Part shown: positions 1,677 through 33,400 of the stretch, piece after piece
Position numbering within the stretch: the stretch's first letter is position 1
Layout: each line of letters starts with the position of its first letter
NCBI GenBank assembly: GCA_028285705.1
Contig: JANQOS010000091.1
Coordinates: forward strand, 1-36,600
Direction of reading: 5' to 3'
Length of the DNA: 36,600 bases
Source: Altibacter sp.
GTDB lineage: Bacteria > Bacteroidota > Bacteroidia > Flavobacteriales > Flavobacteriaceae
The notes under the pieces: model-generated
The model's database searches: none
Told to the model about the DNA's origin: nothing
What the model saw: the letters and a program-made list of their open reading frames with translations, nothing else
Made by a program: the position numbers and the translations under genes

Positions 1677-3233
1677 ATGAGCATATCAAATTCTAAAACT
1701 CCGCCTTCAGAAATTTTTGGGCATCCTAAGGGTTTACTTTATCTATTCTTTGCTGAACTGTGGGAGCGTTTTTCCTTTTACGGAATGCGCGCACTGTTGG
1801 TACTTTACATGACCAAACATCTCTTATTTGATGATGATATGGCATTTGGTGTTTATGCCGCGTATATGTCGTTGGTATATGTAACGCCTATAATTGGAGG
1901 TATACTGGCAGATAAAGTCCTTGGTTTTAGAAAAGCGATTCTTCTGGGGGGAGTTCTAATGGCACTGGGGCATTTTTTTCTAACGATAGAACTGCCCGTA
2001 TTTTTTTATGGCTCCCTGGCCCTGATCATAGTTGGAAACGGTTTTTTTAAACCTAATATCTCATCTTTTGTAGGTGAATTGTACAAACAAGGGGATTCCA
2101 GACGGGATTCCGGTTTTACCATTTTTTATTTGGGAATAAATCTTGGAGCTGCTATTGCTCCGTTAGTTTGTGCATGGTTTGCTGAAACTTATGGATGGCA
2201 CTATGGTTTTGTTTTAGCGGGAATTGGGATGCTAATAGGACTCATTGTATTTAAAAAAGGGTTAAAAAGTAATGTATTTGAAGCAAAGGGACTCGTCCCA
2301 AATTCTGAATTATATCATCAAAAAACGATCGGATTAAATAAAGGGCAACTTGCAATACTTGGATCATTTTTAGCAGTCCCGCTATTCGCTACAATTGTAA
2401 GGTTCAACGAATTTGAGCACTACCTTGTGTGGATCGTTTCCACCTTTTTAATTGGGTACATAGTGTATGTTTTCACAAAAGTAAGTTCAATTGAAAAGAA
2501 GCGTTTATTGGTTGCTGTTTACTTCACTGTTCTGTACACTTTGTTTTCTGCCATATTCGAACAGGCCGGCAGTTCACTAACCTTATTTGCAGACAGAAAT
2601 GTAAACCTGGTGGGAATGGACGCTGCAGGAACCAATAGTATCAATGCCGGGTTTATCATTTTACTCGCGATCCCCTTTTCAATGTTATGGACATTCTTAA
2701 GTAAGAAAAAGAAGAATCCAAATTCTGCTGTTAAATTTGGTTTGGGATTACTTTTTTTGGGGTTAGGGTTCATTATTTTCGCTTTATCTGCCCATAGTGT
2801 GGATTCGTTTGCGAGGACATCTATGCTGTATTTGGTGCTTGGGTATTTAGTACTTACGGTTGGGGAATTGTTCTTATCTCCCATTGGACTTTCTAAAATG
2901 ACCGAACTGTCACCTTTAAAATATGTTGCCTTTATTATGGGGGTATGGTTTTCGGCAAACTTTTACGGCCACTTCTTCGCGGGTAAAATAGCAAAGTTAA
3001 CAACCGTTTCTAATGGAGAGGCCAATATCTTTTCAAGCGGGGTTTTTGGAGATATTGTAACATTTATTACCGGTTTAACACCAGATATCGCTACTCAAAG
3101 TAGTGAATCGTTTCAGCAGTTATTCTCATATGTTTCCGTATATGCAAGTTTTGGAGTAATAAGTTTAATTGTAGGTATATTTGCAATACTTATTTCGCCG
3201 GTTATTAAAAAGATGATGGCCGGTATCCATTAA
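1677..3233 (+). CDS. POT/PTR2-family proton-coupled oligopeptide transporter
   Basis: This inner-membrane transporter (518 aa from the chosen start) imports di- and tripeptides with protons. The first helix holds the POT signature ELWERFSFYG (ExxERFxYYG type, with the Glu and Arg used in proton coupling), and the PTR2 signature appears as FYLGINLGAAIAPL near helix 5. About 12-14 hydrophobic segments and the total length fit bacterial POT proteins. I chose ATG 1677 over the TTG at 1653 because homologues begin close to the SxxPP/GHPKGL segment and the eight extra residues look like leader. The stop lies 10 bases before the O-methyltransferase ATG, so the two genes are likely one transcript. 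Peptide uptake suits a bacterium that secretes several proteases, as this window shows. Confidence 0.93.
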   Translation: MSISNSKTPPSEIFGHPKGLLYLFFAELWERFSFYGMRALLVLYMTKHLLFDDDMAFGVYAAYMSLVYVTPIIGGILADKVLGFRKAILLGGVLMALGHFFLTIELPVFFYGSLALIIVGNGFFKPNISSFVGELYKQGDSRRDSGFTIFYLGINLGAAIAPLVCAWFAETYGWHYGFVLAGIGMLIGLIVFKKGLKSNVFEAKGLVPNSELYHQKTIGLNKGQLAILGSFLAVPLFATIVRFNEFEHYLVWIVSTFLIGYIVYVFTKVSSIEKKRLLVAVYFTVLYTLFSAIFEQAGSSLTLFADRNVNLVGMDAAGTNSINAGFIILLAIPFSMLWTFLSKKKKNPNSAVKFGLGLLFLGLGFIIFALSAHSVDSFARTSMLYLVLGYLVLTVGELFLSPIGLSKMTELSPLKYVAFIMGVWFSANFYGHFFAGKIAKLTTVSNGEANIFSSGVFGDIVTFITGLTPDIATQSSESFQQLFSYVSVYASFGVISLIVGIFAILISPVIKKMMAGIH

Positions 3234-3243
3234 CATAAATTAT

Positions 3244-3885
3244 ATGAATTTCATTTCAGATAAATTAGATGACTACGTAGTTGCTCACTCACAGCCCGAA
3301 CCTGAACTATTACAGGAATTAAATAGAGAGACCTGGCAAAAGGTCCTGGCTCCTCGTATGTTAAGTGGCCATTTCCAGGGAAGAGTGCTAAGTATGATCT
3401 CTAAACTGATCCGGCCAAAAAACATTCTGGAAATAGGAACCTATACTGGATATTCGGCTTTATGCCTGGCAGAAGGAATGAATCCTGAAGGAGAGTTGCA
3501 CACTATAGATATTAATGAAGAATTACACGACCTGCAACGAAAGTATTTTGATAAATCCGGACATGGTTCACATATCTTTCAACATACCGGAAACGCATTG
3601 GAGATTATCCCAACATTGAATATTCATTTTGACCTGGTATTTATAGATGCAGATAAAAATAATTATCCTAACTATCTGGAAATGATCCTTCCAAAATTAT
3701 CAAAAGGAGCTGTAATCTTGAGTGATAATGTTCTGTGGAGCGGTAAAGTAATAGAAGAGGTTAGCAAAGATGATGAAGACACCAGGGCTTTGATCATTTA
3801 CAATAAGTTGCTCAACGAACACCCCTTGCTGGAAACAGTTTTGCTCCCCATAAGAGACGGATTGACAATTTCCAGAGTAAAATAG
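3244..3885 (+). CDS. SAM-dependent O-methyltransferase (caffeoyl-CoA OMT-like, cation-dependent)
   Basis: This 213-aa cytoplasmic class I methyltransferase belongs to the O-methyltransferase family 3 (CCoAOMT/COMT-like), which usually needs a divalent metal. Motif I for SAM binding is ILEIGTYTGYSALCLAEG, the acidic loop after strand 2 is LHTIDINEE, and the metal/catalytic motif is LVFIDADKNNYPNY, followed by the conserved SDNVLWSGKV segment. Length matches the family (about 210-220 aa). It starts 10 bases after the peptide transporter and probably shares its mRNA. Its stop codon (3883-3885) directly abuts the stop of the convergent response regulator (3886-3888) with no spacer. The natural acceptor is not predictable; bacterial members act on catechol-like or CoA-linked phenolics. 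Confidence 0.92.
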   Translation: MNFISDKLDDYVVAHSQPEPELLQELNRETWQKVLAPRMLSGHFQGRVLSMISKLIRPKNILEIGTYTGYSALCLAEGMNPEGELHTIDINEELHDLQRKYFDKSGHGSHIFQHTGNALEIIPTLNIHFDLVFIDADKNNYPNYLEMILPKLSKGAVILSDNVLWSGKVIEEVSKDDEDTRALIIYNKLLNEHPLLETVLLPIRDGLTISRVK

Positions 3886-4524
3886 TTAAGGAACAAATAT
3901 CTTATTCTTTATGGCGTAAATAACTAACCCGGTTCTGTTTCTTAAATTCAATTTTTCAAACAATACGTTTCTGTACCCTTCAATAGTCTTATAGCTTAGA
4001 CACATATCGTCTGCTATTTCTTTATATGTTTTTTCAGTACAGGCGTGTTTTATAAATTCAATTTCGCGTTCTTTTAAAGAAGAAACACTTGTTTCCTTCT
4101 GCGCTAAGGAACCTACCAGAATTTTAGCTACTGTGTTTGTATGATAGTACCCCTTTTTAAGAACTTCTAATAATGCATTCTCAAGTTCGGTCTTTTTAAC
4201 ATCTTTCATTAAATACCCCTTTGCGCCGGCACGAAGCATTTTTAGGATTGTGTTTTCATCTTCTTCGATGGAAAGTGCCAATACATTTACTTGAGGAAAA
4301 TGCTGTCGCAAATGATCGGTCGTTTCAATACCATTTAGAATTGGCATATTAACGTCCATCAATACAATATCGGGGATGTTCCTTGGGTTTTTAAATTTTT
4401 CAATTAATTCCTGTCCATTGTTACACAGGTATAGTACTCTAAATTGTTCAAAATCCCCGATAAGGCTACCTATAGCCTGCGAGAGTAAATTATGATCATC
4501 TACAACAACAACTGAATACTTCAT
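3886..4524 (-). CDS. NarL/FixJ-family response regulator (REC + LuxR-type HTH)
   Basis: This 212-aa cytoplasmic transcription factor is the output of the two-component system encoded just upstream. The receiver domain spans about residues 3-120, with the acidic pair D9/D10, phospho-acceptor D57 (in VLMDVNMP), the switch Ser in LALSIEED, and the conserved Lys in GYLMKD. A LuxR-type DNA-binding domain follows at about 148-205 (LKEREIEFI...KEIADDMCLSYKTIEGYR). The start ATG is two bases after the histidine kinase stop, so the pair is translated from one mRNA. All key residues are intact, so the protein should be phosphorylation-responsive. Targets are unknown; the divergent control region at 6397-6765 and the regulator's own operon are the obvious candidates. 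The 3' end abuts the convergent methyltransferase gene without a gap. Confidence 0.95.
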   Translation of the reverse strand: MKYSVVVVDDHNLLSQAIGSLIGDFEQFRVLYLCNNGQELIEKFKNPRNIPDIVLMDVNMPILNGIETTDHLRQHFPQVNVLALSIEEDENTILKMLRAGAKGYLMKDVKKTELENALLEVLKKGYYHTNTVAKILVGSLAQKETSVSSLKEREIEFIKHACTEKTYKEIADDMCLSYKTIEGYRNVLFEKLNLRNRTGLVIYAIKNKIFVP

Positions 4525-4526
4525 AA

Positions 4527-5291
4527 TTAATCAATTTTATATGTGAGGGAAAATTGAGTGCCTTTATTTTTTTCAGATGTGATCTGTACTTTTGCACCAA
4601 TTAACTTAGCTCTGTTCTTGATATTACTTAAACCAATCCCCTTTTTCGTGTTTACTTTGGAAGTATCAAACCCTACTCCGTTATCTTCAGCATTAATTTT
4701 CAATACATTATCACTAAAGTCCACATTTACAAAGAGTTTTGATGCTTTTGAGTGTTTTACCGTATTTGTAAAAAACTCTTGAAGCATCCTAAAGATAATA
4801 ATCTCTTTCTTATTATCTATAGAGAATGAAGCTTTAGTGTATTGCATGGACGCTTCCAAATATTTTAACCTGTTAAAACGTTCCACTTCTTGTTGCAGGG
4901 CCTCTACCAATGAGAGGTTATTTAGTGAACTTGGATTAATAAGCTTGGAGAGGCTTCTTAATTCGTTCAAGCTTGTACCAATTGTACTTATAGCCTCTTC
5001 TATGGCTTCCGGACTACCTTTCGCGTTCTGCAATTGAATTTTTGCCAATGTTAGCAACTGTCCAATATTATCATGGAGTTCCCAGCTCACATTACGCAAG
5101 GTATCTTCCTTAATTTCAATTTGCGTTTCAATTATTTCTTCTTTAAACCTACTCTCGGCTTCCTGCTGTTCTTTTACCAATTTATTTTTTCTTTTCTGAA
5201 ACAAGGCAAAAAGAAGAATAACGGTAAGTGCTAAAAACAAAGCAATGACCGAAAAAATAATTAGAAACGATTGTACTTCTTTTTCGTCCAT
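4527..5291 (-). CDS. Membrane sensor histidine kinase (HisKA_3-type) with a single N-terminal TM helix
   Basis: This 254-aa kinase has one hydrophobic helix (about residues 9-31), a short coiled-coil-like linker rich in Glu/Lys (33-65), a dimerisation/phospho-acceptor box WELHDNIGQLL with H73, and a C-terminal HATPase_c domain with N-box FFTNTVKHS, G1 box DNGVGFD, G2 box GIGLSNI and a final GTQFSLTY strand. This is the NarL-partner kinase class, matching the regulator two bases downstream. There is essentially no extracytoplasmic or PAS sensory domain, so signal input must come from elsewhere. Its first 31 bases overlap the end of the upstream 7-TM gene, suggesting tight translational coupling and a physical partnership. 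The start at 5291 is preferred because a later start would cut into the TM helix. Confidence 0.94.
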   Translation of the reverse strand: MDEKEVQSFLIIFSVIALFLALTVILLFALFQKRKNKLVKEQQEAESRFKEEIIETQIEIKEDTLRNVSWELHDNIGQLLTLAKIQLQNAKGSPEAIEEAISTIGTSLNELRSLSKLINPSSLNNLSLVEALQQEVERFNRLKYLEASMQYTKASFSIDNKKEIIIFRMLQEFFTNTVKHSKASKLFVNVDFSDNVLKINAEDNGVGFDTSKVNTKKGIGLSNIKNRAKLIGAKVQITSEKNKGTQFSLTYKID

Positions 5292-5902
5292 ATAAATCCA
5301 ATAATATAACAGCCATATAAAATGATGTTCAGGCTTAACAGAATCAATAAATAACTTAAACCCCTAAATTTTATATACCCCGATAAAGAGAACAAAGGTA
5401 TTATTCCCATATAAAAAAGGAGTAGCGCCGTAGAGATCCAAAAGCTCAGTTTGTATTTTACAATGAGAACTTCGTCGCTATTCAACAATTGATAAAAATG
5501 GAATATGGTAAGTACTAATACAAATAAGGCTCCGGCTATTAGTGTATACATATGGTATTCTAACCAACTTTGGTACACTAAGTTCACAATTGCAATGACT
5601 GTGAAAATTATTGAAAAAACAATGACTATGTTTTTAAATATCTTCCGTTTTAATATGGTGTGATACCAATAAAAATAAAAGAGAAAGCTTGTTATCGTAA
5701 AAGCATTATACAACCAGATATTCTTAACCTCAAAGACATAACCTAAAATTGCTCCGGTAACTTCAAGTGCAAAGGTGTACCATAAAAAATACAGGAAAAA
5801 CTTTTCAGTAGAAAAACTATATTTTTTAAAGTGAACTGTTGCAATAATAGCTGCTAAAAGTTCAAGTCCTAAAGGAATTAAAGATAGAGGTTGTATTTCC
5901 AT
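5261..5902 (-). CDS. 7-TM integral membrane protein, putative sensory partner of the overlapping kinase
   Basis: This 213-aa protein is almost entirely hydrophobic. Helices lie at about residues 6-24, 35-57, 65-84, 92-112, 117-138, 154-174 and 182-205, with short charged loops and a basic C-terminus (WTKKKYNRF). No enzymatic motif is visible and I do not recognise a named family. Its 3' end overlaps the histidine kinase gene by 31 bases, and it starts 8 bases after the lipoprotein gene stop, so it is in the middle of a four-gene operon. Because the kinase has only one TM helix and no sensor domain, I infer that this 7-TM protein is the membrane input, a split version of a 7TM-histidine kinase. 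That is inference from gene order; a structural or transport role is possible. Confidence 0.8.
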   Translation of the reverse strand: MEIQPLSLIPLGLELLAAIIATVHFKKYSFSTEKFFLYFLWYTFALEVTGAILGYVFEVKNIWLYNAFTITSFLFYFYWYHTILKRKIFKNIVIVFSIIFTVIAIVNLVYQSWLEYHMYTLIAGALFVLVLTIFHFYQLLNSDEVLIVKYKLSFWISTALLLFYMGIIPLFSLSGYIKFRGLSYLLILLSLNIILYGCYIIGFIWTKKKYNRF

Positions 5903-5910
5903 TTAAAATA

Positions 5911-6396
5911 TTAATAACCTATTGGTGGCTGCCCTCCCTGCGAATAATTTAAGGCCTTAAGCCCATCAATATTTTCGTTTTCGGGCAATACCGGTAAAAA
6001 TCCTTGTCGCAATGGAGAAGTCTTCTTCCGAGTCGTTGGCACTAAAAATACAGTAGAATAGCCTGCATCCCTATAATTACTGTTTTTAGGGTATGCTGCA
6101 AAATAAACACGCATTCCCAAATTTTTGAGGTCTTGTTTTTTTGCTTCATATTCAACATATTCAATGTACTTTTTTAATGAATCCAGTGAGAACCAAAATT
6201 CTCTGGTATCATCATACCCGAGAGCATCATTGATAACTCTATATCTTGTGACTATATAATCCTCTTCCAGCGTATTAGCCTCATCATAGCTAATTACTTG
6301 TTGGGGAGGAGTCACCTGTGGGTCACAAGAAACATTGAAAAGAATAAGTAGTACAACTACACAAAATACTAAAGATGATACAATTTTTGATTTCAT
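5911..6396 (-). CDS. Small lipoprotein of unknown function, first gene of the two-component operon
   Basis: This 161-aa protein begins with a type II signal peptide: basic start, hydrophobic run, and lipobox FNVSC with the acylated Cys at residue 24, followed by a Pro/Gln-rich linker (DPQVTPPQQ). The mature domain of about 125 residues contains YIVTRYRVINDALGYDD, the central RVYFAAYPKNSNYRDAGYS and a Gly/Pro-rich tail ending QGGQPPIGY. I do not recognise the fold. It is the promoter-proximal gene of the minus-strand operon (lipoprotein, 7-TM, kinase, regulator) and diverges from the exported proteins at 6766 and 7273. A role as periplasmic or outer-membrane input or accessory protein for the sensor is inferred from position only. 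The Asp right after the Cys does not by itself tell whether it stays in the inner membrane in this phylum. Confidence 0.8.
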   Translation of the reverse strand: MKSKIVSSLVFCVVVLLILFNVSCDPQVTPPQQVISYDEANTLEEDYIVTRYRVINDALGYDDTREFWFSLDSLKKYIEYVEYEAKKQDLKNLGMRVYFAAYPKNSNYRDAGYSTVFLVPTTRKKTSPLRQGFLPVLPENENIDGLKALNYSQGGQPPIGY

Positions 6397-6765
6397 AATA
6401 CACTGGTTTTAAGGTTTGTGTAAAATTAAGTATTAAATGCTTATAAAAAGAATCTTATATTTGTATAGCAACAAAAATTAATTATAAATAATTGGTTTAT
6501 AATTAGTTAAACTTTCTACTTAAAAAAATAATAAGGCATTTTCCTTATCTGTATAGGGGTTTTTCCCTTTATTGATTTAGGGTATATCTTATGAAGCTCC
6601 GGAATCTACACTAATAAAATAAGGAGGTTTTACAATAGCTAAAAACAGCTTTTTAACTCTAGTCTCATTTCACATTGAACCTCATCTTTGTACCAGTTAT
6701 TTCGAAATACTGCATCAATTTTTGCAACGGTAAAAAACATTTTTAATCATTTAAAAAGAGCAATT
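6397..6765. promoter_or_regulatory. Divergent control region between sensor operon and exported-protein operon
   Basis: This 369-base stretch has no supported gene. An upstream in-frame extension of the next gene to 6688 exists but lacks signal-peptide character and is rejected. The region is very AT-rich. A TAnnTTTG match (TATATTTG) lies at 6456-6463 on the plus strand but without a good upstream box. Around 6551-6584 are two G-tracts, TATAGGGG and TTAGGGTATA, with a C-tract (TCCC) between them, which could be a regulator site. A run close to a Shine-Dalgarno core (AAGGAGG) at about 6623-6629 is not followed by a usable start codon. Control of both flanking operons by the neighbouring response regulator is plausible but unproven. 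Confidence 0.5.
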
Positions 6766-7260
6766 ATGAACAAATCAATTTACATCGCACTCTTTGCTTG
6801 CCTTACAATGAGTATGGGTTATGCACAGAGTTTAAGTCAAACAGTGATGGCAAACTCGGGCGAAACCATAACTGGAGCATCAAATACTTTGAGCTTTACC
6901 GCAGGAGAAACTATTATAGGTAATATAAGCAGTAGTTCTTCTTTGGGGCAAGGCTTTTGGTTAGGTGCCATTGTGGAACTGACGCTAAGCAGTGAAGATT
7001 TTACTTTTGAAGTAGAAGCCACTGTCTATCCAAACCCGGTAACCGACTATCTAAATCTTTATTTTAAAGATATGGCCGGCGAAGATTTTAAGGCTGTTGT
7101 GTATGACCTCAACGGAAAGCAGGTATTACATAAAGAGTTGCTTAAAAGCTCCGCAAATGAACTACTCAATTTTAGCACATTTAGCTCGGGTGTCTATATT
7201 TTAAAAATTGAACAGAGCACAACTAAAAAATCAAAAACTTTTAAAATTATCAAACAATAA
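6766..7260 (+). CDS. Minimal exported protein with T9SS type A sorting domain
   Basis: This 164-aa protein has a Sec signal peptide (MNKSIYIALFACLTMSMGYAQ), a short Ser/Thr/Gly-rich region (residues 22-80) with a GETITGASNTLSFTAGETI pattern ending in LGQGFWLG, and a C-terminal T9SS type A sorting domain (about 88-164) starting VYPNPVTDYLNLYF and ending GVYILKIEQ...TFKIIKQ. The Por secretion system should carry it across the outer membrane and cleave or anchor it. There is almost no cargo beyond the sorting domain. I chose ATG 6766 rather than 6688 because the signal peptide begins there. It is 12 bases upstream of the fibre-like gene at 7273 and probably co-transcribed. Small proteins of this layout often sit beside fibre-like exported proteins in flavobacteria (recollection, not checked). 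Confidence 0.88.
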   Translation: MNKSIYIALFACLTMSMGYAQSLSQTVMANSGETITGASNTLSFTAGETIIGNISSSSSLGQGFWLGAIVELTLSSEDFTFEVEATVYPNPVTDYLNLYFKDMAGEDFKAVVYDLNGKQVLHKELLKSSANELLNFSTFSSGVYILKIEQSTTKKSKTFKIIKQ

Positions 7261-7272
7261 AAACCAATTATT

Positions 7273-8310
7273 ATGAAAACTAAAATAACTTTTTTTGTAT
7301 TCGCTTCATTATTAATGACTTTCTCGACTACATTTGCACAAGATGGAGAAGGTTTTGTAAACAATTCAGATTATGCTAACCAAAGAGCATTGGATGAAGC
7401 CAAGAAGGTAGAGGCTAACTCTCAAACTACTATTAAAGCAACTGAAGTAACAAATACTTCTGTAAGATTAGCAGCTGCAGAACTTATCAACTACCAGGCA
7501 GTTGCAAGAAATGCCGGTGGAAATTTAATGACAAATGCCAATGTTACTATCGATTTTGAAATAAGAGATGGTGCCGGTGGAACTGCTGTTTTTAATGAAA
7601 CTCAAAACTTAGTAACTGATGCCAATGGTGTCTTCTCTGCCCAAATAGGTAGTGTAAGCCCTTTAGACGCAGTAAACTGGTTGGATATCGACGCTTATCT
7701 TGATGTTACTATGGATGGAACCAATGTAGGTGAAACTCAAATTGGAAGTGTTCCTACTGCTTTACATAGTAGAGAAAGTGGGCAAGTGATGATCTATGGA
7801 TCCGGAACTACAAATGCAGACAAAATGATCGCACAACACTCTCCCGGATTTCCAGGATGGGGAATTGGATACAGCGATGTTGGAGATGACGTAAATTTTA
7901 TGGCCGGAGGTACAACAAATCTAAGTGTTGATCTTGGAACTGGTAATATGACTACTGACGGAAATATAGAAATCACTCAGACTACGACCAGCCCTTCTGT
8001 AAATACAATTTACGGAAACTCCGTTGCAATTGCTTTTGGAAGTATAGATTCTCTTGGAGGAATTTCAACAGGATATGGTATTGCATCAGTTAACAACTCT
8101 GCAACAGGTGTATATGAGGTTACTTTAGACCTGGATTCAAATCCGGCCAACACTATTGTTACCATTACACCGTTTACCATTGGTTTTGGTATACCGGAAA
8201 TTTGTGGATATGAAACAACAGGTGCCAATACATTTACTGTTAGAATACAGGATGCTTCAGGAACAGCAAGAGACAGTGCTTTTACTTTCGTAGTTTACGG
8301 AAACCAATAA
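7273..8310 (+). CDS. Exported fibre-like protein with N-terminal beta domain and C-terminal knob-like domain
   Basis: This 345-aa protein has a Sec signal peptide (first ~23 residues ending TTFAQ), a charged Ala/Glu/Gln linker (24-65), a beta-rich domain beginning LINYQAVARNAGGNLMTN and ending around PTALHS (about 70-168) that is common in secreted Bacteroidetes proteins, a middle segment with glycine-rich turns, and a C-terminal domain (about 235-345) with the pattern VAIAFGSIDSLGGISTGYG ... FTFVVYGNQ. That last domain resembles C-terminal knobs of fibre-like proteins, so I expect a trimeric surface fibre; this is by pattern, not by alignment. It has no T9SS sorting domain. It follows the minimal T9SS protein by 12 bases and is closed by a hairpin at 8318-8357. 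Confidence 0.75.
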   Translation: MKTKITFFVFASLLMTFSTTFAQDGEGFVNNSDYANQRALDEAKKVEANSQTTIKATEVTNTSVRLAAAELINYQAVARNAGGNLMTNANVTIDFEIRDGAGGTAVFNETQNLVTDANGVFSAQIGSVSPLDAVNWLDIDAYLDVTMDGTNVGETQIGSVPTALHSRESGQVMIYGSGTTNADKMIAQHSPGFPGWGIGYSDVGDDVNFMAGGTTNLSVDLGTGNMTTDGNIEITQTTTSPSVNTIYGNSVAIAFGSIDSLGGISTGYGIASVNNSATGVYEVTLDLDSNPANTIVTITPFTIGFGIPEICGYETTGANTFTVRIQDASGTARDSAFTFVVYGNQ

Positions 8311-22272: not shown

Positions 22273-23952
22273 TTAATGTTTGACGATCCTTTTTGTGATC
22301 GAACCATTTTCGGTATGTATTTTCACAAAATACATGGCTGTCTCTAATGCCGAAATGTCCATCTGATAACTTCCTTCTCCTTTAACAGCAATCCGGTTCA
22401 CCACTCTACCTCTAACATCATACACTTCGACATCTGCAATTGGTGTTTGTGGAGATACAATATTCAAGATATTTTTTGCAGGATTTGGAAAGACAGCTAT
22501 TCTTTTCAGATTATTGTCATCGGTATCTAGGACCACCTCTTCTTCGAACATCAATGTAAACCTTTGATTGAAAGTTCCTTTTCCTGCCTTAAATTGGTAG
22601 TCTCCCTGACCGGTTAGATTATGGATGAAATTCTCCTGATTGTCAACCAGTAATATCTTGGTATTTGCAATATTGTTTCCTTCCAAAGAAGCAATGGATA
22701 TGGTGTAATAGGTATCTGCATCCACCTGAGATGCAAATCCCATGGATACTTTTATGGCAGAGTCAAAGGCTTCCCTGCTTTGAATACCTAATTGTTGTGT
22801 TCCATTTTCCAAATGAGAGTATAGAGAAATGGTCGTTGCTAATCTTTGTGCATCATATCTTTCGTCTAATCCTTGTGTTGCCAGGGGGTTGAATGCTATT
22901 AGTGCATGACTTCCTATTCCGTATTGTTCGTTTCGAACTTTCAGCAATACTTTTTCTATATCGACCGGGTTTCTTAAGGTTGTGTTACCGCTGGTCAATC
23001 GCATCGCGTTTGTAAAGGTTACATTTCCTGCACCAAAGGCCTTGATACCAAATCCCTGTCCGGTGGCGATCACTCCATTGGATTGTGTACTGGTACCGGG
23101 ATCGTTAGCTGCCGGTAGGGCACCTCCGTCTATATACATGGAGATATCATCCATAGAGAAGTTGATACTTCCCGCACCGGGCGTACTTGGGCTTGGTGGG
23201 GTCAAATGTTCCCAGAAATAGATCCTGTCCACCAGCGGATTGGCACTGATAAACTGAGAGGCCGATATGGCAGAAGCATACGGATTGGCCAATGCATTGG
23301 GTGTTCCATCTGGGTTAGGTCCGGCTCCATTGTAAACAATAGGCCTTGTGATGTCTCCGTTGTTAAGGGTTCCCTTGGTATAGGTCATATCAAAGGTGGT
23401 ATTGGCCGGATCGGTGTACCCGGATTGAGGCCTTACAATATATCCTTCTCCCACATTGATGGGTCCACTTGCAAAAGAAGTCCAGAAATCTCCATTGTCA
23501 TCGGCGAAGTTGGTTCCTCCTGCGAGTACGCCCGGGTGTGGTAAGAAGTTGGCCGGTGTATGTTCCAGAACCAAGAAAGCACTTCCAAATACATCGGTAC
23601 GTGTTTCACCACTCATAGGGCTTCCCAGCACCATAAAGTCACGGGTCTGTAAAACAGGGGTGGTGAGTTCTACATTGATGGTTCCGTTGTTGGTCACAGT
23701 AGCAGCACCATCTGTTTGAACGACGCTTCCCGTATGTTTTACGATCAGGCTTCCGTTTACAGCTATGTTTCCATTGATCTTCATATAATTACCAGCTTCA
23801 ACTGTCACGGTCTGTCCGGCCCTTACTTCACAGGTACATGCGTCTATGTTTCCACTTGAAGTATTATAATCTTCAGTGAATATTGCTTTTTTGGTCACAT
23901 CCGGATTTCCATTATCCCACGATCCGGACGAAAAAGTTGTTGTTGAAGCACA
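22273..23952 (-). repeat. Shared C-terminal module, copy 1 (in PL8 lyase)
   Basis: This is homologous to 28761-30458 over its full length. It encodes about 559 residues: a W-x-G-x-P type beta domain (FSSGSWDNGNPDV), a central region starting VLQTRDFMVLGSPMS, and the T9SS type A sorting domain. By eye, central protein identity with copy 2 is about 90%, with many synonymous DNA differences. Confidence 0.9.
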
Positions 23953-26850
23953 GGTTTCCGGCCCCTGTTCAAGAAGGACTTCATACGAAAGGCCATCAAC
24001 GGTTGTAAATTCGATCACAGTCTCGGTAGCATTGGCAGAGGTGATCTGAACAGCAGGATTGGTAGTTACAAAATGCCACTCTCCTTGTAAAGTAACTTCT
24101 TTTACTACTGTAATTGAAGCAGCATACGACCTGCTATCAAATCCTATATCCGGATTGCTTAAAGAAAGTAATAAGGTCTGGGCTGTACTATCGTATTCTG
24201 TCATCACCAAACATGAAGAATTTACATCCGTTACATAATCATAACTAAGGTTGGCGGCACTATTGAAAAAAGCATAACCCCAAATATTCTTTGACTCATG
24301 CTCTACAATATGTGCATTGGCATTCTGTTGATGTACGGTATAAGGTTTATTGCCTCCTTGTATATCTGTATCCAGGGATTGCATTTCAGAAATAGAAGAA
24401 TCCGGTTTTAAAATGTATTCGTAGCTTTCATTTGAAGGGCTCGTTCCATGGTCCAGATATCCTATATAATATGTGTCTGTAGCATTGCCACTATAATCTA
24501 CAGGCCATATCTGGTTATAATTAGGAGTTTGCTGTACAGCTTTACTAACTTTTAGACTATGTCCTCCCGAGAGTAAATAAAACCCTGTCCCATAGTTGCT
24601 CAAGACCCAATGATCTGTAGCACCACTGAAGCTCACTTCACTCAAAGAAGATTGACTACTTCCATCTACGGTAACTCCGTTTCCGGTATTATCTATACGC
24701 TGATACAAGGTTGTGATCGTTGGATTGGTAGTGTCATCATTAGAAATTCCGGATCCCAGACAAACAATAATGTCATCAAAATAAAAACTCGATTTTTTAA
24801 ATGTGAATGTATTATTGTGGTTATTGGTAGAATGGGTAGTTCCCCAACCCAGGCCTTCCTGTTCCTGAAAATCCATCGCAAACAGACCATAGTCTCCATG
24901 ATTGTTCAGTAACAATTCACTATTCTTTTTGTTAAGGGTCAATGCTCCTACAAATCGGTTTTGCTGTAACTCATCAATCCTGCCTCTCTCTCCGTGCAAT
25001 TCTGCCCAGGGTAATCTTATCACCGTAGCGCCGGGGCTATAGTTCCAATCCCAGGTATCTACATCATAGCCATTACCAGTCTCCAGATCACCGGGATATA
25101 AAACCTCTAAGGCTCCATAACTTTGGTAACGACCATATCTGTTTGCGGTAGTGTAGATCTCACTACCCCACATATTGTTAGAAAATCCTTTGTTGAATAC
25201 TACCCAGTTGTCCTTTCTGAAAGCACCTGCCGAAGCATGATTGAACTGAAAAAATCCTTCCGTAAATGGTAAGAGACTGCTATAATTGAACTCTGCATCT
25301 ACGCCATAGATTCGGTTATACATTCCCGCAAAAATCGGGTCGGCTGTTGGTAATCCTAAAATATCTCCACCTGCAATCGCTAAAAGTTTTAAGCTTGACT
25401 GGTTAAATTGCCTGATTCTTAATTCGGGTCTTCTACCATTTGTAGATAATGCTTGTATACCATCATCATTAGCTTGCATGTATTGATTATACACCGCATT
25501 TCTGAATACCTCATAACTCGCCTGATCTACCTGAAAACTGGTTCCTCTTAAATAATACAGCAAACTTGCAGCCGTCTTATAAGCGTACAAATAATTGTTA
25601 TAGGCGGTCCAGTGATGAAAACCGGAACCATCTGCTTTTATTCCATCTGTTGTGCCAACTGTATAGGAGAAAAAACGCTCCAAATACCTTTTAAAGCCTC
25701 GCATATACCGATAGCGTTCATCGGCAGTGTCATACCACAAGCTATAAGCCATCATAGCATCTAATATATTGTAGACCAGATCGGTATTAATACTACCATT
25801 TGCAGTTTGATAGGCAGTATCATAGGTAGCGACCCAGTAATGTTCAAACTCAACTGAGTGTTCATATAAAGTATAAGCGAACAGGTCCTTGACATCCGTG
25901 TCAAGAAAATCTTTCAGTAAAGAAGCGGGCCTGGCAAAATCTTCATAAGAATACATCTGGCTATCCAATGACAGGGAACCCGAACAAAATTGTTTTGCTA
26001 CCCACCATACCGTATTGTTTGCCTTTTCCTGAATGGCAGTATCACCGGGGTTGAATTTTAAATGCTGAGCAAATGTTTTTAAAAAGGAAGCTGTGCTGAA
26101 TGAGCTCATAGCGTCACCGGATATTACACCACCCGTTACACTTATATTCAAAGCAGCATACGAGCTTTCTGCAGAAGACAATGTTCCTGCCGAAGGTGCA
26201 CTGGTACCTAAATAACTATCTGAAAACCGGTCAACTGCCAGATTTATTTCAGCTTCTATGGTTGCATTAGAAGAAATTAGGGATAGGTCCGGAGTTAATG
26301 TAAAAGGACAGGTCTGGGCCAGGCTTAAAGAAACATAACTTCCATTGAGCGAAAGGTTATCTATTGCCAAATTACGATATGTATCCCCGGGATCATTTCT
26401 AATATATCTAACCTGTAAGGTATCTCCAACATCACTGGCAACTGCCGTGTAATTCAATGTGGTTAATACCGGAGGTGAACTACTGTTCGAAATTAATACG
26501 GGTGAAGCTGTTGAAGCCAGAACAGTATTATCTGTAACATTATAAAGTTCTACATTGAAACGAACATAAGAGACATTGACATTGTAAGTATAGGTATTTA
26601 TTACAATGGACTCTCCTAAAGTCATGGCTCCACCGAAAGTGTGAGTAACTCCTTGCCCGACAACCGCAGACTGTCCATCAACAAAAATAGCTCCGTCACC
26701 TACTCCATCACCATTATCACCATCTGAAGTAACAATACTCAAATTCACATCGCCGATCTCGGTCCAATAACCCGAAGTGCTTACTACCTGTGCATTGGTT
26801 GTAAAGGTTAAAAATATAACTAAAAGTGTAAATAGGTAAGAGGTTTTCAT
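22273..26850 (-). CDS. Secreted polysaccharide lyase family 8 (chondroitinase-ABC type) with T9SS sorting domain
   Basis: This 1525-aa protein has a Sec signal peptide (residues 1-21), an N-terminal beta-sandwich domain (about 22-165) resembling the lyase's carbohydrate-binding domain, an alpha/alpha toroid (about 180-510), anti-parallel beta-sandwich domains (about 540-960) and a C-terminal module (967-1525) ending in a T9SS type A sorting domain (VFPNPAKNILNIV...). All four catalytic residues of Proteus chondroitinase ABC are found in context: H413 and Y420 (GFHHWTAYNNY; reference H501/Y508), R473 (NGRRPE; R560) and E564 (WGSEIYTTANRYGRYQS; E653). Spacing H-R is 60 versus 59, and R-E is 91 versus 93. 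Substrate is probably a uronate-containing polysaccharide such as chondroitin or hyaluronan; no susCD genes are nearby. I chose ATG 26850 because it begins the signal peptide. Confidence 0.93.
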   Translation of the reverse strand: MKTSYLFTLLVIFLTFTTNAQVVSTSGYWTEIGDVNLSIVTSDGDNGDGVGDGAIFVDGQSAVVGQGVTHTFGGAMTLGESIVINTYTYNVNVSYVRFNVELYNVTDNTVLASTASPVLISNSSSPPVLTTLNYTAVASDVGDTLQVRYIRNDPGDTYRNLAIDNLSLNGSYVSLSLAQTCPFTLTPDLSLISSNATIEAEINLAVDRFSDSYLGTSAPSAGTLSSAESSYAALNISVTGGVISGDAMSSFSTASFLKTFAQHLKFNPGDTAIQEKANNTVWWVAKQFCSGSLSLDSQMYSYEDFARPASLLKDFLDTDVKDLFAYTLYEHSVEFEHYWVATYDTAYQTANGSINTDLVYNILDAMMAYSLWYDTADERYRYMRGFKRYLERFFSYTVGTTDGIKADGSGFHHWTAYNNYLYAYKTAASLLYYLRGTSFQVDQASYEVFRNAVYNQYMQANDDGIQALSTNGRRPELRIRQFNQSSLKLLAIAGGDILGLPTADPIFAGMYNRIYGVDAEFNYSSLLPFTEGFFQFNHASAGAFRKDNWVVFNKGFSNNMWGSEIYTTANRYGRYQSYGALEVLYPGDLETGNGYDVDTWDWNYSPGATVIRLPWAELHGERGRIDELQQNRFVGALTLNKKNSELLLNNHGDYGLFAMDFQEQEGLGWGTTHSTNNHNNTFTFKKSSFYFDDIIVCLGSGISNDDTTNPTITTLYQRIDNTGNGVTVDGSSQSSLSEVSFSGATDHWVLSNYGTGFYLLSGGHSLKVSKAVQQTPNYNQIWPVDYSGNATDTYYIGYLDHGTSPSNESYEYILKPDSSISEMQSLDTDIQGGNKPYTVHQQNANAHIVEHESKNIWGYAFFNSAANLSYDYVTDVNSSCLVMTEYDSTAQTLLLSLSNPDIGFDSRSYAASITVVKEVTLQGEWHFVTTNPAVQITSANATETVIEFTTVDGLSYEVLLEQGPETCASTTTFSSGSWDNGNPDVTKKAIFTEDYNTSSGNIDACTCEVRAGQTVTVEAGNYMKINGNIAVNGSLIVKHTGSVVQTDGAATVTNNGTINVELTTPVLQTRDFMVLGSPMSGETRTDVFGSAFLVLEHTPANFLPHPGVLAGGTNFADDNGDFWTSFASGPINVGEGYIVRPQSGYTDPANTTFDMTYTKGTLNNGDITRPIVYNGAGPNPDGTPNALANPYASAISASQFISANPLVDRIYFWEHLTPPSPSTPGAGSINFSMDDISMYIDGGALPAANDPGTSTQSNGVIATGQGFGIKAFGAGNVTFTNAMRLTSGNTTLRNPVDIEKVLLKVRNEQYGIGSHALIAFNPLATQGLDERYDAQRLATTISLYSHLENGTQQLGIQSREAFDSAIKVSMGFASQVDADTYYTISIASLEGNNIANTKILLVDNQENFIHNLTGQGDYQFKAGKGTFNQRFTLMFEEEVVLDTDDNNLKRIAVFPNPAKNILNIVSPQTPIADVEVYDVRGRVVNRIAVKGEGSYQMDISALETAMYFVKIHTENGSITKRIVKH

Positions 26851-26901
26851 CTTGTATGATATGTTTAAATCGGGGAAACTTATCTTCAATTCTTCTATAT
26901 A

Positions 26902-26984: not shown

Positions 26985-28592
26985 TTATGATTTCTTTTCC
27001 AGTTCACTTAATCTTTTGTTTAGTGCTTCAATAGCGTCTACAGCTTTATCAAGTTGTTCTTTTAGCTGGTTATTTTCGATTTCCAGTGTTTCAATTTTTT
27101 TGGAAGCTTCAATATTATGTAAAAATAACTCCTCCACTTTTTCAAGGTTATCACGAATTCCTTCAGTAACATTCCATCCATTATCCATAACTTCTTTTCT
27201 GCTCTGAACATTAGGTAAGTGATTGTTCTTCATTAAAAACGCTTCGACTTCTTTTAGGCTCTTCAGGCTATACGTCTTATTATATTCTGAAAATCCGGCG
27301 TAATACGTTTCGAATACATAATCAGGATAGGTGTAAGCTCCTCCTGTATTTCTCAGGGTACCTGTTAGGTTAATATCTCCGGCTACATCCAGTGTATATC
27401 CTGGTGTTGCCGTACCAATTCCTACTCTATCTGTACTGGCATCAGCAAAAAATAAATTTGCATCGGTCTGCCCTTCAATCCTGAAGTCAAAATCTCCACT
27501 TGCTTCGTTAGCAACTACATGCCCTCTGTTAAATACTGCAGCATAATAAGTACCGCCGGTTCCATATGAATCAAACCAACCTGCATAATTGGTTCCAGTA
27601 GCACTATTGATATCATTAAAAGTACCGTAACCATTTTTACCGGCCTCTGTATTATTTATATCATTATAGGTACCATATTGATCTCCATTTCCTCCTAATT
27701 GATTTTGAATTCCATACTTGTCTCCTGTTCCGGATCCATCTACATCGTTGATAATACCGGAATGTGTACCGTTCCCTGCGGCTCCATCGTCTCCAATATC
27801 ATTATAAACTCCCGTTCTGGTTCCGTCTTCCGTACCTTTTAGGTTATTATAAACTCCCCACCTGGTTCCGGCCCCGGTATTAATTTTATTATATATACCT
27901 GCAAGCTGCCTGGTGCTTCCTGCAGTTGCATTTAAATTATTGTATAGGCCGTATCGCCTTCCCGATCCTGATCCGCCTCTTACATAAGTACTGATTGCAT
28001 ATTGATCTGTACTACCGGAATCATTATTAACATAATCTACATATAAACCGCGAGATGTTCCGGAATTCGATCCGGAAACCTTAACACTAAGCGCATTTGT
28101 AGAACCAGTTGTTGCAATACTTGCAGCATTAGCAGAAGTATTATCCTGAACATCTAAAGCAGAACTGGCTGTTGTTTTTCCTATGGCAACTTTACCGGTT
28201 CTAAAAACATCGTCTGTGATCGCATCCGGAGGAAGTGAAGTACCTACCTCATGAAAGTCACCATCTTTAAAAGTAATAACAACCCATTGGCTTCCATCCC
28301 AATAATAATATCCCGGAGCAACTGCAGTACTCCCGGATCCTGCCGTGGCAGTATTATAGACCAACAAACTAGTTGCAGGAGCAGGAGTTATAGGTGTACT
28401 GGCATTTGTTGCAGTAAGTGCTACATTGGGGATCAATATACCTTTATCTGTACTGGTAATATCTAACATGGCACCATTTCCCGGAGAAGTAGTATTGATT
28501 CCCACCTGGGCAGTTAGATCTGTTGAAAAACTAAAAATGATACATAAAACCCAGATAAGGGTATAGGCTTGAGGCTGTAAGTATTTCTTCAT
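26985..28592 (-). CDS. Exported repeat-rich fibre protein with C-terminal coiled coil
   Basis: This 535-aa protein has a signal peptide (about 1-29, ending DLTAQ) followed by VGINTTSPGNGAMLDI, a frequent N-terminal motif of Bacteroidetes surface proteins. A region at about 180-341 holds around ten tandem units of 13-18 residues with consensus (Y/T/S)-G-(I/V/T/L)-(Y/F/I)-N-(D/N/K)-(I/L), for example WGVYNNLKG, TGVYNDIGD, YGTYNDINN, YGTFNDINS. After it come VGIGTATPGYTLDVAGDI (tail-fibre-type motif, ~393-410), a conserved domain DYVFETYYAGFSEYNKTYSL...HLPNV (about 424-500) and a heptad-like coiled coil to the end. It has no T9SS domain. I expect a trimeric beta-helical fibre with a C-terminal trimerisation coil; this is structural inference. 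It sits between the two genes that share the C-terminal module. Confidence 0.85.
   Translation of the reverse strand: MKKYLQPQAYTLIWVLCIIFSFSTDLTAQVGINTTSPGNGAMLDITSTDKGILIPNVALTATNASTPITPAPATSLLVYNTATAGSGSTAVAPGYYYWDGSQWVVITFKDGDFHEVGTSLPPDAITDDVFRTGKVAIGKTTASSALDVQDNTSANAASIATTGSTNALSVKVSGSNSGTSRGLYVDYVNNDSGSTDQYAISTYVRGGSGSGRRYGLYNNLNATAGSTRQLAGIYNKINTGAGTRWGVYNNLKGTEDGTRTGVYNDIGDDGAAGNGTHSGIINDVDGSGTGDKYGIQNQLGGNGDQYGTYNDINNTEAGKNGYGTFNDINSATGTNYAGWFDSYGTGGTYYAAVFNRGHVVANEASGDFDFRIEGQTDANLFFADASTDRVGIGTATPGYTLDVAGDINLTGTLRNTGGAYTYPDYVFETYYAGFSEYNKTYSLKSLKEVEAFLMKNNHLPNVQSRKEVMDNGWNVTEGIRDNLEKVEELFLHNIEASKKIETLEIENNQLKEQLDKAVDAIEALNKRLSELEKKS
27569..28056 (-). repeat. Tandem degenerate repeats (13-18 codons each) within the fibre gene
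   Basis: About ten units with the core G-(I/V/L/T)-(Y/F/I)-N-(D/N/K)-(I/L) separated by Gly/Thr/Ser/Asp-rich turns. Unit length varies by several codons and the units are diverged at DNA level, so it is a protein-fold repeat and not a recent tandem duplication. Confidence 0.8.
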
Positions 28593-28760: not shown

Positions 28761-30458
28761 TTAATACTTCACAACCCTTTTTGTGATCGTACCATTTTCG
28801 GTATGTATTTTCACAAAATAAATAGCAGTTTCTAAAGCGGAAATATCCATCTGATAACTTCCTTCTCCTTTAACTACAACACGGTTCACTACTCTACCTC
28901 CAACATCATACATCTCAACACTTGTAATAGGACTTTGTGGAGATACAATATTCAGGATATTTTTCGCAGGGTTTGGGAAAACAACTATTCTTTTCAGATT
29001 AGTATCATCGGTATCCAAGACCACCTCTTCTTCGAACATCAATGTAAATCTTTGATTGAAAGTTCCTTTACCACTCTTAAATTCATAATTGCCGGTACTT
29101 AAATTATGGATCACGTTTTCCTGATTATCCACTAAGAATACGGTAGCGTTACTTATATTGATTCCCTCTATTTCAGCAATAGAAATTGTATAAAGAGTCT
29201 CCGCATCCACCTGACTGGCAAAACCCATAGAAATCTTCATGCTACTATCAAAGGTTTCTCTACTCTGAATCCCAAGCTGCTTTGTTTCATTCTCTATCTG
29301 GGAGTATAATGAAATTGTTGTAGCTAATCGCTCAGCATCATATTTTGAATCCAGTCCGGAAGTTGCCAATGGGTTAAACGCAACCAAAGCATAGCTACCA
29401 ATACCATAGTTCTCGTTTCGTACTTTCAACAATATTCTTTCAATATCTACAGAGTTTCTTAAAGTTGTATTTCCTGTAGTTAAGCGCATACTATTTTTAA
29501 AAGTAACTGTAGAAGTAAGGTTTGATTTGATCTTTACTCCAAATCCTTGTCCGGTAGCAATAACCCCATTAGGAGTTGTTGTCCCTCCTCCATCATTAGC
29601 TGCCGGTAAGGCACCTCCATCTATATACATAGAAATATCATCCATAGAAAAATTGATACTTCCGGCACCTGGGGTACTTGGGCTGGGAGGGGTTAAATGC
29701 TCCCAGAAATAGATCCTGTCTACCAAAGCATTATCACTTATGAATTGAGAGGCCGAGATCGCAGAAGCGTATGGATTGGCCAATGCGTTTGGTGTTCCGT
29801 CCGGATTGGTCCCTGCTCCATTATAAACGACCGTTCTCATTACATCCCCATTATTTAAGGTTCCTTGAGTGTAGGTCATATCAAAGGTTGTATTAGCAGG
29901 ATCTGTATATCCGGATTGTGGGCGCACAATATATCCTTCCCCCACATTAATAGGCCCGCTTGCAAAAGAGGTCCAGAAATCATTATTGTCATCTGCAAAA
30001 TTAGTTCCTCCTGCCGGTACTCCCGGATGGGGCAAAAAGCTGGCAGGAGTATGTTCCAGTACCAGGAATGCGCTATTGTACACACCGGTACGGGTCTCGG
30101 CGCTCATTGGGCTTCCCAGTACCATAAAGTCCCGAGTTTGTAAAACTGGAGTCGTTAGCTCTACATTAATGTTGGCACTTCCTCCTTTAGTTACTAATGC
30201 ATTGGAATTAGTCTGCACAACACTTCCCTGATGCTCTACCACTAAGTTTCCGTTTACAGTAATGTTTCCATATATGTCTATAAAACTATTGGCAGGAATG
30301 GTAAGTGTTGCCCCTAAATTAATTGTAAGGTCACAGGCAACAATGTCTCCGTCCGTATCTGTGTTATAGGGCCCTGCAATCACCACAGAATTTGTAATAT
30401 CCGGTACTCCTGTTGGACTCCATGAAGAACCGTTCCAGGTCTTAACACTTCCCGGACA
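28761..30458 (-). repeat. Shared C-terminal module, copy 2 (in S8 protease)
   Basis: About 565 residues from C1011 to the C-terminus, homologous to 22273-23952. It begins with KTWNGSSWSPTGVPDITN, continues with VLQTRDFMVLGSPMS and ends with the T9SS type A sorting domain. The catalytic parts of the two proteins are unrelated, so this is domain shuffling or intragenomic duplication of the 3' part. Confidence 0.9.
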
Positions 30459-33400
30459 GGATACAAACGCGCCGGCCGGGCCAAATAAATAGGTTCCCTC
30501 CAGTCCTGTAAATGTTCCTGTTAAAGTAACATTAGAAGCAAAAGAACCGATCGTTAATGTAGATGTTTCATTCAGTGCTCCTCCCGTATATCTTCCGGAA
30601 GTTAAAACGTTTCTTGATAAGCCTGTTGCTGCCTCCCATCCTGCAATTTCAGCTTCAGTGAAATAAAATGTAATACTTGTACTACCCGATCCGGTCACAA
30701 ATGTTGGAGTAATATCAAATGTCTTATCCATCACTAAATTAGGAGAAGAACTACCATTGTTAGATTGTGCTCCGGTTCCCGCCCTGGAAACCGAAACGTC
30801 TACACAACCAAAATCATGTGTATTGCTATTGGTAATATCCAGCATTACATCTCCAGAAGCACTATCTGAAGTATACATTGTTCCTGTACCAGGCAGGTCG
30901 ATCTGGTCATTTGTAGTTCCGGTATTTACTGCAGTTTGTACTGGGCTTTCAATAGTTACTGTAATGTCAAGAGCATCAAAAAACAGAAGTCCGTTATTTG
31001 CCGCGGAATTATAGTGCCTGATCACAAAATAACCTGTTTGCCCTGCCAGGGTTGTATTATTTACTGTTCTGACATCCCCTACATTTGCAGTTGCATCACG
31101 TTCTTCAAGTATGGTTCCCGCATCAATTGCTGCATATGATGAGATGTCCGTTGTCCACTGAAGCCTATAATGCTCTATATCATTATATCCGGCTATAGAA
31201 AAAGTAAATGCGGTATTGGTAGCACCAGCCGGTATAGTCATTTGCGGACTAATAAGATAGTTATCGGCATTTGCTGAGCCTGATCCTCCTAATACGGTAA
31301 GGTCTGTTTCTGATGCCGCAAACTGTCCTGAGAATCCTGTTAAACCTCCCGAAGTAAAAGAAATTGACTTCCATCCTTCTCCGTCACCATCTCTGTCCGC
31401 ATTTAACCAACCGGTCCAATCTTCAAAATCTTCGGTCAATAGGGTAATATCTTGCGTACTTGCCGGAGCAACATCATCGCTATTAATAGTAATTTTAAGT
31501 GAATCTGCATTTGTATTTGCTGTTGCATCTCCTCCATTAGCATTAACTGTAAAGTCAATAATTATTGTTTCCGGGCTTTCAACAAAACCGTCATGATAAA
31601 CACGTACTGTTATATTTTGGGAAGTTGTCTGACCTTGTAAAAAGGTTACTGAGTTTGTCATAAGATCAAAATCCACTCCATTAGTTGCTGTTCCTCCAGC
31701 TACTGTAAAAGTAACGTCCGCATCTTGAGATGGAGCCATAGCAATATTAACAGGCATAACTACATCTGTGAAACTACAATTGGTTTGTTCGGTAGCAATT
31801 GCGGTAATGGAATTATAAGAGATCTCCGGGGAAGTAACTGAAATAATTCCTCCGGTCACTATCAAAGAAAAGTTCTGTGATCCACCCGAAAGAGTCCCTT
31901 TATGTGTTACTGAAAGCGTATACTGGCCAGAAGCACTACTAATATCAATTCTTTCATAAGGATCCACTATGTTATCACCTGTACCATTTGTGGTAACTCC
32001 TGTAAGTCTCCATGGAGTAAAAGAAGTTCCATTATCCAATCTAATATCTAAGTCGTTTACCAATGCCGGAGTATTACTATTTGTTCCATTATTAATCGTT
32101 CCGGCCGGATCTGTCCAGGAAATGGAAGCCATTAATGGGTTTACACCGTCTGCCTGGATAGTAACCTGGTAGGTTTGTCCCTGGGAAAGTGTCAATTCAG
32201 AAATTACAGCATTAGTTGGCGCGGCTGCAATTGTTTCGGCTGCTGCCTTTGCATTCATCAAACCCCATCCGGTTTGGGCATCGGGCCCAGTTGGAGAAAC
32301 ATCATCTGCAGTGTGTAGTGCAAGGCCTTTAAGGGTTGCGGCTCTCATAAATGCCCCATGAACATCAAAATAATAATCCTGAAGTAGTAAAAGCGTTCCC
32401 GTTACATTAGGAGCAGACATTGATGTTCCCGATATGGTCCCATATGCACTATCACTTCCATGAAAAGTAGAAGTTAGTAAAGTACCATTTCCCATAATGT
32501 CTGGTTTAATACGGTAATCATCTGTTGGTCCTTCACTACTGCCAGAATTTCTTGTTACTGATACCAAATTTCCACTTCCGTCAATATTTGCATCCTGACC
32601 GTTAGCAATTACAAGATTATTCTTGGCACAAGCATCTCCATTCAATTTATCATAAGATGACTGGCCGTCCAATGGATTCCCATTAGAAGCATTATCGTCT
32701 CCATCATTACCAGCCGATTTAATCTGTAAATAGTAAGGTGCGTTGTACATTATTTCGTCCCATTCCCGTGCATCGGAACCATATTGTCCAAACCATGAAT
32801 TGGGAATCAATGTAGCATCAAAACCATACGAGTGATTTGATAAAAGCATTCCCGATGAGGCAGCTGTCGTGGCTTCTGTTACATCATTATCCCAATCATA
32901 TGTTAAAGCATCTGCTTTCCATGCCATTCCTTTGGCTGCTGCCGAAAACCCTGATGCTACTATAGTACCTGTAACGTGTTGTGCGTGAAAACTATTAGAA
33001 TTAAGAGTTGTAACTCCATCATTGATAGTCACTCTATTGGTCCCTCCTGCGCCATCAAATTCCTGATGCGTAGGCCTTGTAGGCCCACCATCCCACACAT
33101 AAGCTGTTAAACCATCACCATCTATTGTTAAACCAAGACCTCCTCCGGTATTCAAGTAGTTAGCCCGTGTTGAGATTGCAGCATTCACATTATGTAATGT
33201 GTAATATATCGGAGAACCGTCCGGAGCTATTTTCTGAAGCTCATCGAAAGAACCATCTTCGTTATATTTTTTTACTGGTATATTGTGGATCAACGCATAG
33301 GCAACAGCCGCTTCCTTTTCCGCTATTTGTTTTGCGCTATAACGATTGTACAATTCTGTCAATTTTATTTGATCATAGCTATCAACAATTGTCTGAATCT

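Follow-up and report, generated by a model that had tools for sequence, protein, structure and literature searches.

Comparative evidence for a four-gene signalling module of marine Flavobacteriaceae and for a predicted double-dyad operator that it may share with a divergent pair of exported-protein genes

Comparison of gene order and sequence supports the interpretation of four adjacent minus-strand genes of an Altibacter sp. contig as one conserved signalling module that is widespread in marine Flavobacteriaceae. We are moderately confident of a model in which the module has four components: a lipoprotein and a 7-TM protein that would serve as the input, a sensor-less kinase (HK), and a NarL-type response regulator (RR) that would bind paired dyads and thereby regulate both its own operon and a divergent pair of genes for exported proteins, T9SSp and FIB. 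The window is the whole stretch of DNA that was analysed, 36,600 nucleotides in length (contig JANQOS010000091.1 of assembly GCA_028285705.1); numbers prefixed with L, G and C designate loci, genomes and contigs, respectively.

The six genes of interest, their strands, the spacings within the minus-strand operon (8 bases for lipoprotein/7-TM, -31 for 7-TM/HK and 2 for HK/RR) and the 369-base length of the control region had been given in the initial annotation, and all were found to be exact on re-reading. The features are as follows.

3886-4524, minus strand: RR, a NarL/LuxR-type response regulator of 212 aa with receiver and GerE domains
4527-5291, minus strand: HK, a HisKA_3 and HATPase_c kinase of 254 aa with one apparent TM helix
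5261-5902, minus strand: the 7-TM protein, 213 aa, of an unnamed family, with a 31-base overlap with HK
5911-6396, minus strand: the lipoprotein, 161 aa, of an unnamed family
6397-6765: the control region of 369 bases between the divergent units
6421-6428, minus strand: probable -7 box of the signalling-operon promoter, TAATTTTA, read from sequence
6535-6567, no strand: predicted regulator operator consisting of two dyads, from comparative evidence
6683-6690, plus strand: probable -7 box of the T9SSp-FIB promoter, CATCTTTG, from the control-region alignment
6766-7260, plus strand: T9SSp, a minimal T9SS type A cargo protein of 164 aa with a signal peptide and a sorting domain
7273-8310, plus strand: FIB, an exported fibre-like protein of 345 aa, directly 3' of T9SSp

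Pfam agrees with the initial calls of a NarL-type regulator, a kinase with no sensor domain and a T9SS protein. RR consists of a receiver domain (Response_reg, 1e-24) and a GerE domain (1e-10), in which the motifs VDDH, LMDV and KTIEGYR were located, while HK consists of HisKA_3 and HATPase_c domains with the H, N and G boxes intact (ELHD at residue 71, NTVKH, DNGVGF and GIGLSNI), an architecture that fits a NarL-type two-component system. The closest NCBIfam model of HK is UhpB (3e-28), and its match to the LiaS model (3e-20, 73 bits) is below the cut-off of 450. Across modules, kinase and regulator diverge closely in step (correlation of sequence distances 0.91, partly due to mixed regulator classes), and the distances of the lipoprotein and the 7-TM protein track those of the kinase and regulator less (0.34-0.51).

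A search of 201 Flavobacteriaceae genomes found a relative of the 7-TM protein in 120, almost always in the order lipoprotein/7-TM/kinase/regulator, and the order lipoprotein-like/7-TM/kinase/regulator is conserved across approximately 60 mapped loci. Because this order recurs in dozens of genomes, the four-gene arrangement is far beyond chance. Two paralogous modules are present in many genomes, including that of the window, where the second four-gene copy is located on contig C106 (L003, G000:C106, 4386-6842); its lipoprotein-like protein has no signal peptide, and the products of the genes divergent from this module are a PG-binding/CHAP protein and a patatin-like protein. More than one 7-TM gene, in tandem or otherwise repeated, is present in the modules at L047, L071, L074, L078, L087, L088 and L091.

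Neither the 7-TM protein nor the lipoprotein matched any family of Pfam or NCBIfam. The AlphaFold2 model of the 7-TM protein, made with six input sequences (pLDDT 73, pTM 0.73), has exactly seven long helices, as the initial annotation had it, and comparison of this fold with the PDB returned nothing below E=1; a weak resemblance to rhodopsin was set aside. A signal peptide with a lipobox-like end, S23-C24, is present in the lipoprotein, and these two residues are invariant in all six aligned members of the window type. Its family is recognizable by the core LGxRxYFAAYP...TVFLVPT (LGxRxYFxAYP in a wider alignment) and by a C-terminal GGxPP, which is GGxPPxxY in many of the aligned members. The AlphaFold2 model of the lipoprotein was poor (pLDDT 48) and unusable, and a distant search with a 22-member alignment yielded no usable pattern. 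A signal peptide is missing from some members of the family, the paralogue in the window genome among them, which means that an envelope location does not hold for every copy of the domain.

Almost every locus, also where the partner is a LytTR regulator, has the lipoprotein gene next to the 7-TM gene. At L049 and L057, a LytTR regulator takes the place of the GerE type after the lipoprotein/7-TM pair, and a domain scan identified the L049 kinase as His_kinase (PF06580), not HisKA_3; L048, L052, L059 and L063 resemble these two loci as judged by regulator length alone. Since the lipoprotein and the 7-TM protein recur together with two unrelated classes of kinase and regulator, we infer that they may be the input stage of the module, and the His_kinase/LytTR swap is the best evidence for this. 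An earlier proposal that the two proteins sense an envelope signal survives as to the input role, on account of the two partner classes, but gains no support as to the envelope origin of the signal, because in paralogous modules this lipoprotein domain comes with no signal peptide. The lipoprotein could instead be an enzyme or a structural protein that travels with the operon and takes no part in sensing, to which its poor model and the members with no signal peptide would be congenial; its adjacency to the 7-TM gene even where the partner is a LytTR regulator makes this unlikely. More tentatively, and with slightly less conviction than doubt, we propose that the lipoprotein and the 7-TM protein constitute a portable sensory cassette, not described before, that Flavobacteriaceae combine with two or more unrelated classes of kinase and regulator (HisKA_3/NarL and His_kinase/LytTR). 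In its NarL form, the cassette would govern a regulon of envelope and surface proteins by way of a GGN(A/T)4NCC double-dyad operator.

On the other side of the control region, T9SSp has the attributes of a T9SS type A cargo protein: a signal peptide, read from sequence, and a sorting domain recognized by Pfam (Por_Secre_tail, 1e-15, 58 bits against a cut-off of 27) and by TIGR04183 (1e-13). FIB matched no Pfam family, and its N-domain match to the NCBIfam fibre model NF053851, over residues 63-128, has 28 bits and does not reach the cut-off of 60. Twelve orthologues of FIB were found in a collection of approximately 85,000 species, and T9SSp is directly upstream in all 12. Excluding L120, where the pair locus stops at a contig edge, 11 loci could be judged: five have the module in divergent orientation to the pair (L115, L116, L119 of Aureisphaera galaxeae, L125 of Ulvibacter litoralis, and L129) and six have no adjacent module (L117, L118 of Gilvibacter sediminis, L121, L122, L123 and L124), among which L122 and L123 have the same genes flanking the pair, with the module missing. 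Gene maps also contain many modules with no T9SSp-FIB alongside. The notion of a fixed six-gene unit in the initial annotation thus failed the neighbourhood check both ways; by these comparisons T9SSp-FIB is a separate two-gene unit, not part of one inherited unit and probably linked to the module by the operator.

Six genomes have an unlinked pair: four of them contain a full module elsewhere (L118, L121, L122 and L124), the L123 genome has partial module genes on short contigs, and in the L117 genome nothing beyond a 32% regulator homologue turned up. The L120 genome has a closely similar regulator on another contig. The module being common (60% of genomes), its co-occurrence with T9SSp-FIB is by itself weak evidence. 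At L124 (Aequorivita lipolytica, 2759-5327), a TPR-containing kinase and a LuxR-type regulator are divergent from T9SSp-FIB in the place of the module. Elsewhere in the window, two large T9SS-type proteins (22273-26889 and 28761-33488) have a long, nearly identical C-terminal segment in common, which suggests a recent segmental duplication, and the gene between them (26985-28592) encodes an exported tail-fibre-like protein of 535 aa (VGINTTSPGNGAMLDI...).

Upstream of the lipoprotein gene in orthologous loci is a dyad, GGN(A/T)4NCC, usually paired with another 21-24 bp away. The dyads of the window, GGCATTTTCC at 6535-6544 and GGGTTTTTCCC at 6557-6567, are 22 bp apart; the distances to the probable -7 boxes, which were read from sequence, are approximately 107 bp for the operon promoter and 115 bp for the pair promoter. 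The -7 consensus of flavobacteria is TAnnTTTG (PMC9723704); a box similar to TAATTTTA is at the same place in lipoprotein orthologues, and the CATCTTTG box is conserved in L116, L119 and L129. The core dyad is upstream of 36 of 49 NarL-type modules (missing in 13) and in 17 of 742 control upstream regions, compared with one of six LytTR modules and one of 12 modules with no nearby regulator (2/18 jointly; Fisher p=9e-6 against the NarL type); independence in this count holds for the LytTR comparison and for the other NarL-type modules, but not for the close relatives of the window, in which the motif was first spotted.

Alternatively, the dyads could be RNA hairpins that act as an attenuator or a terminator, and indeed a terminator scan flags AGGGGTTTTTCCCT at 6555-6568. 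However, the arms are always GG and CC around an A/T core, meaning that sequence is conserved and not pairing; the sites are paired at 21-24 bp; and the dyads track the DNA-binding type of the regulator. Because the arms do not covary, a DNA site is the more likely interpretation and a hairpin very improbable. A second alternative, that the dyads are read by some other regulator (an L124-like LuxR-type TPR system or a paralogous module) and that the site of this RR is different, draws on the two modules per genome in the species of the window and on the arrangement at L124, where such a system is beside the pair; it is quite unlikely, given that the dyad is best conserved upstream of modules and nearly absent if the regulator is of the LytTR type or missing.

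The module might also regulate only itself, with T9SSp-FIB an uninvolved neighbour across the intergenic region in some genomes, as the prevalence of modules with no pair and the six of 11 judgeable pair loci with no module alongside would allow. Against this, the dyad is retained upstream of T9SSp in five of the six loci where the module is not adjacent (loci that share descent and are not fully independent), the dyad not being found upstream of the pair at L124. Furthermore, a PWM trained solely on pair-less modules ranks the module-less T9SSp promoters above controls (Mann-Whitney p=0.001) and places five of six in the top 5%. Autoregulation alone is therefore rather unlikely, and RR probably controls the divergent T9SSp-FIB pair through the predicted operator, because an operator-like dyad stays upstream of the pair when the module is not adjacent. 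The initial annotation had the regulator switching the surface fibre on; control of the pair is upheld by the shared dyad and the five module-less loci, but activation rather than repression is not borne out.

Genome-wide, double dyads with a spacing of 22 numbered 45 in 33 genomes versus 15 for a reversed-pattern control, and those with a spacing of 23 numbered 27 in 12 genomes versus two for the reversed pattern. Single dyads in the window are at chance level (12 found, 12.35 expected), and single occurrences of the looser pattern GGGWWWWWCCC genome-wide were overall not above their reversed control; only paired dyads and their position are informative.

In the genome of the window, double dyads are also found at C108:4905 and 5113, where a DUF1801 gene is on one side and an operon that encodes a 202-aa membrane protein, HTH_34 and CreD on the other, and at C106:17289, between genes for an M16 peptidase and an eCIS_core protein (L222). 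The 202-aa/CreD operon has dyad pairs a short way upstream in G027, G055, G039, G064, G079, G115, G075, G119, G158 and G106, and further upstream in G000, G091 and G200. The CreD operon was rejected as a universal target, as no dyad pair is there in 15 further genomes, many of which have a NarL-type module; the predicted link is limited to the clade of the window. Curlin genes have a double dyad approximately 345 bp upstream only in the Aequorivita-like genomes G027, G246 and G244, the curlin-repeat genes with such a site being L180 1341-2810, L185 3983-4840 and L231 1502-2950. A role as general curli regulator was likewise discarded, since the other examined curlin clusters, including those of the window genome and a sister genome, have no double dyad. 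The CreD and curlin sites being restricted to some genomes, the regulon would be lineage-variable. A survey in 2012 noted that the curli systems of Bacteroidetes, Spirosoma excepted, are without csgD (PMC3521004). Some modules have, on the other side of the dyads, a divergent gene of the Pvc16 type, an eCIS component (L205 1625-2215, L209 3405-4049 and L058 6900-7496), identified by a Pfam match for L205 and by likeness of the first residues for L209 and L058.

In the proposed mechanism, the lipoprotein and the 7-TM protein would form the input stage and act on the membrane-anchored, sensor-less kinase, which would phosphorylate its NarL-type partner as is typical of the family. A dimer of phosphorylated RR is predicted by the comparative evidence to bind paired GGN(A/T)4NCC dyads, here at 6535-6567 between the divergent promoters, from which it would regulate the signalling operon itself as well as the T9SSp-FIB surface pair. 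RR or its paralogue probably also regulates the CreD envelope operon in the clade of the window.

To our knowledge, sensor-less kinases are common in Flavobacteriaceae, and few response regulators of the family have a defined operator. The two unnamed families are a plausible missing sensor; a defined DNA site makes the regulon testable, and the swap between NarL and LytTR regulators serves as an internal control. Predicted targets include T9SS-exported proteins, the fibre-like protein and the CreD envelope operon, with curlin genes only in Aequorivita-like genomes.

Several known systems invite comparison. NarL-type regulators bind inverted repeats as dimers. The module resembles NarX/NarL in its HisKA_3 kinase and receiver-GerE regulator, but its kinase has no periplasmic sensor domain and its predicted operator is GGN(A/T)4NCC, not the NarL heptamers. 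T9SSp shares the C-terminal type A sorting domain of T9SS type A cargo, but is otherwise little more than a short conserved N-terminal stretch, and FIB differs from the mosaic adhesive trimer fibres of NF053851 in being below the cut-off and having no predator context. In UhpABC, the signal enters through a separate membrane protein, the 12-TM transporter-like receptor UhpC, and is passed to the kinase UhpB and the regulator UhpA; UhpB is the closest NCBIfam model of HK, but UhpABC has no lipoprotein and its targets differ. LiaFSR (PMC3543457) comprises the accessory membrane protein LiaF, the kinase LiaS and the regulator LiaR. There as here, a separate membrane accessory protein is encoded beside the kinase and regulator. 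The kinase and regulator of LiaFSR are of the same general classes as HK and RR; in contrast, the module belongs to Bacteroidota, has a different operator and no known envelope-antibiotic signal, and includes two unrelated accessory proteins, the 7-TM protein and the lipoprotein, neither of which matches a LiaF family. In open-access papers, neither the module, its accessory pair nor the dyad site was found described; as for the kinase and regulator, they are NarL-type proteins of the ordinary kind. The module is comparable in logic to LiaFSR or UhpABC and is a member of neither.
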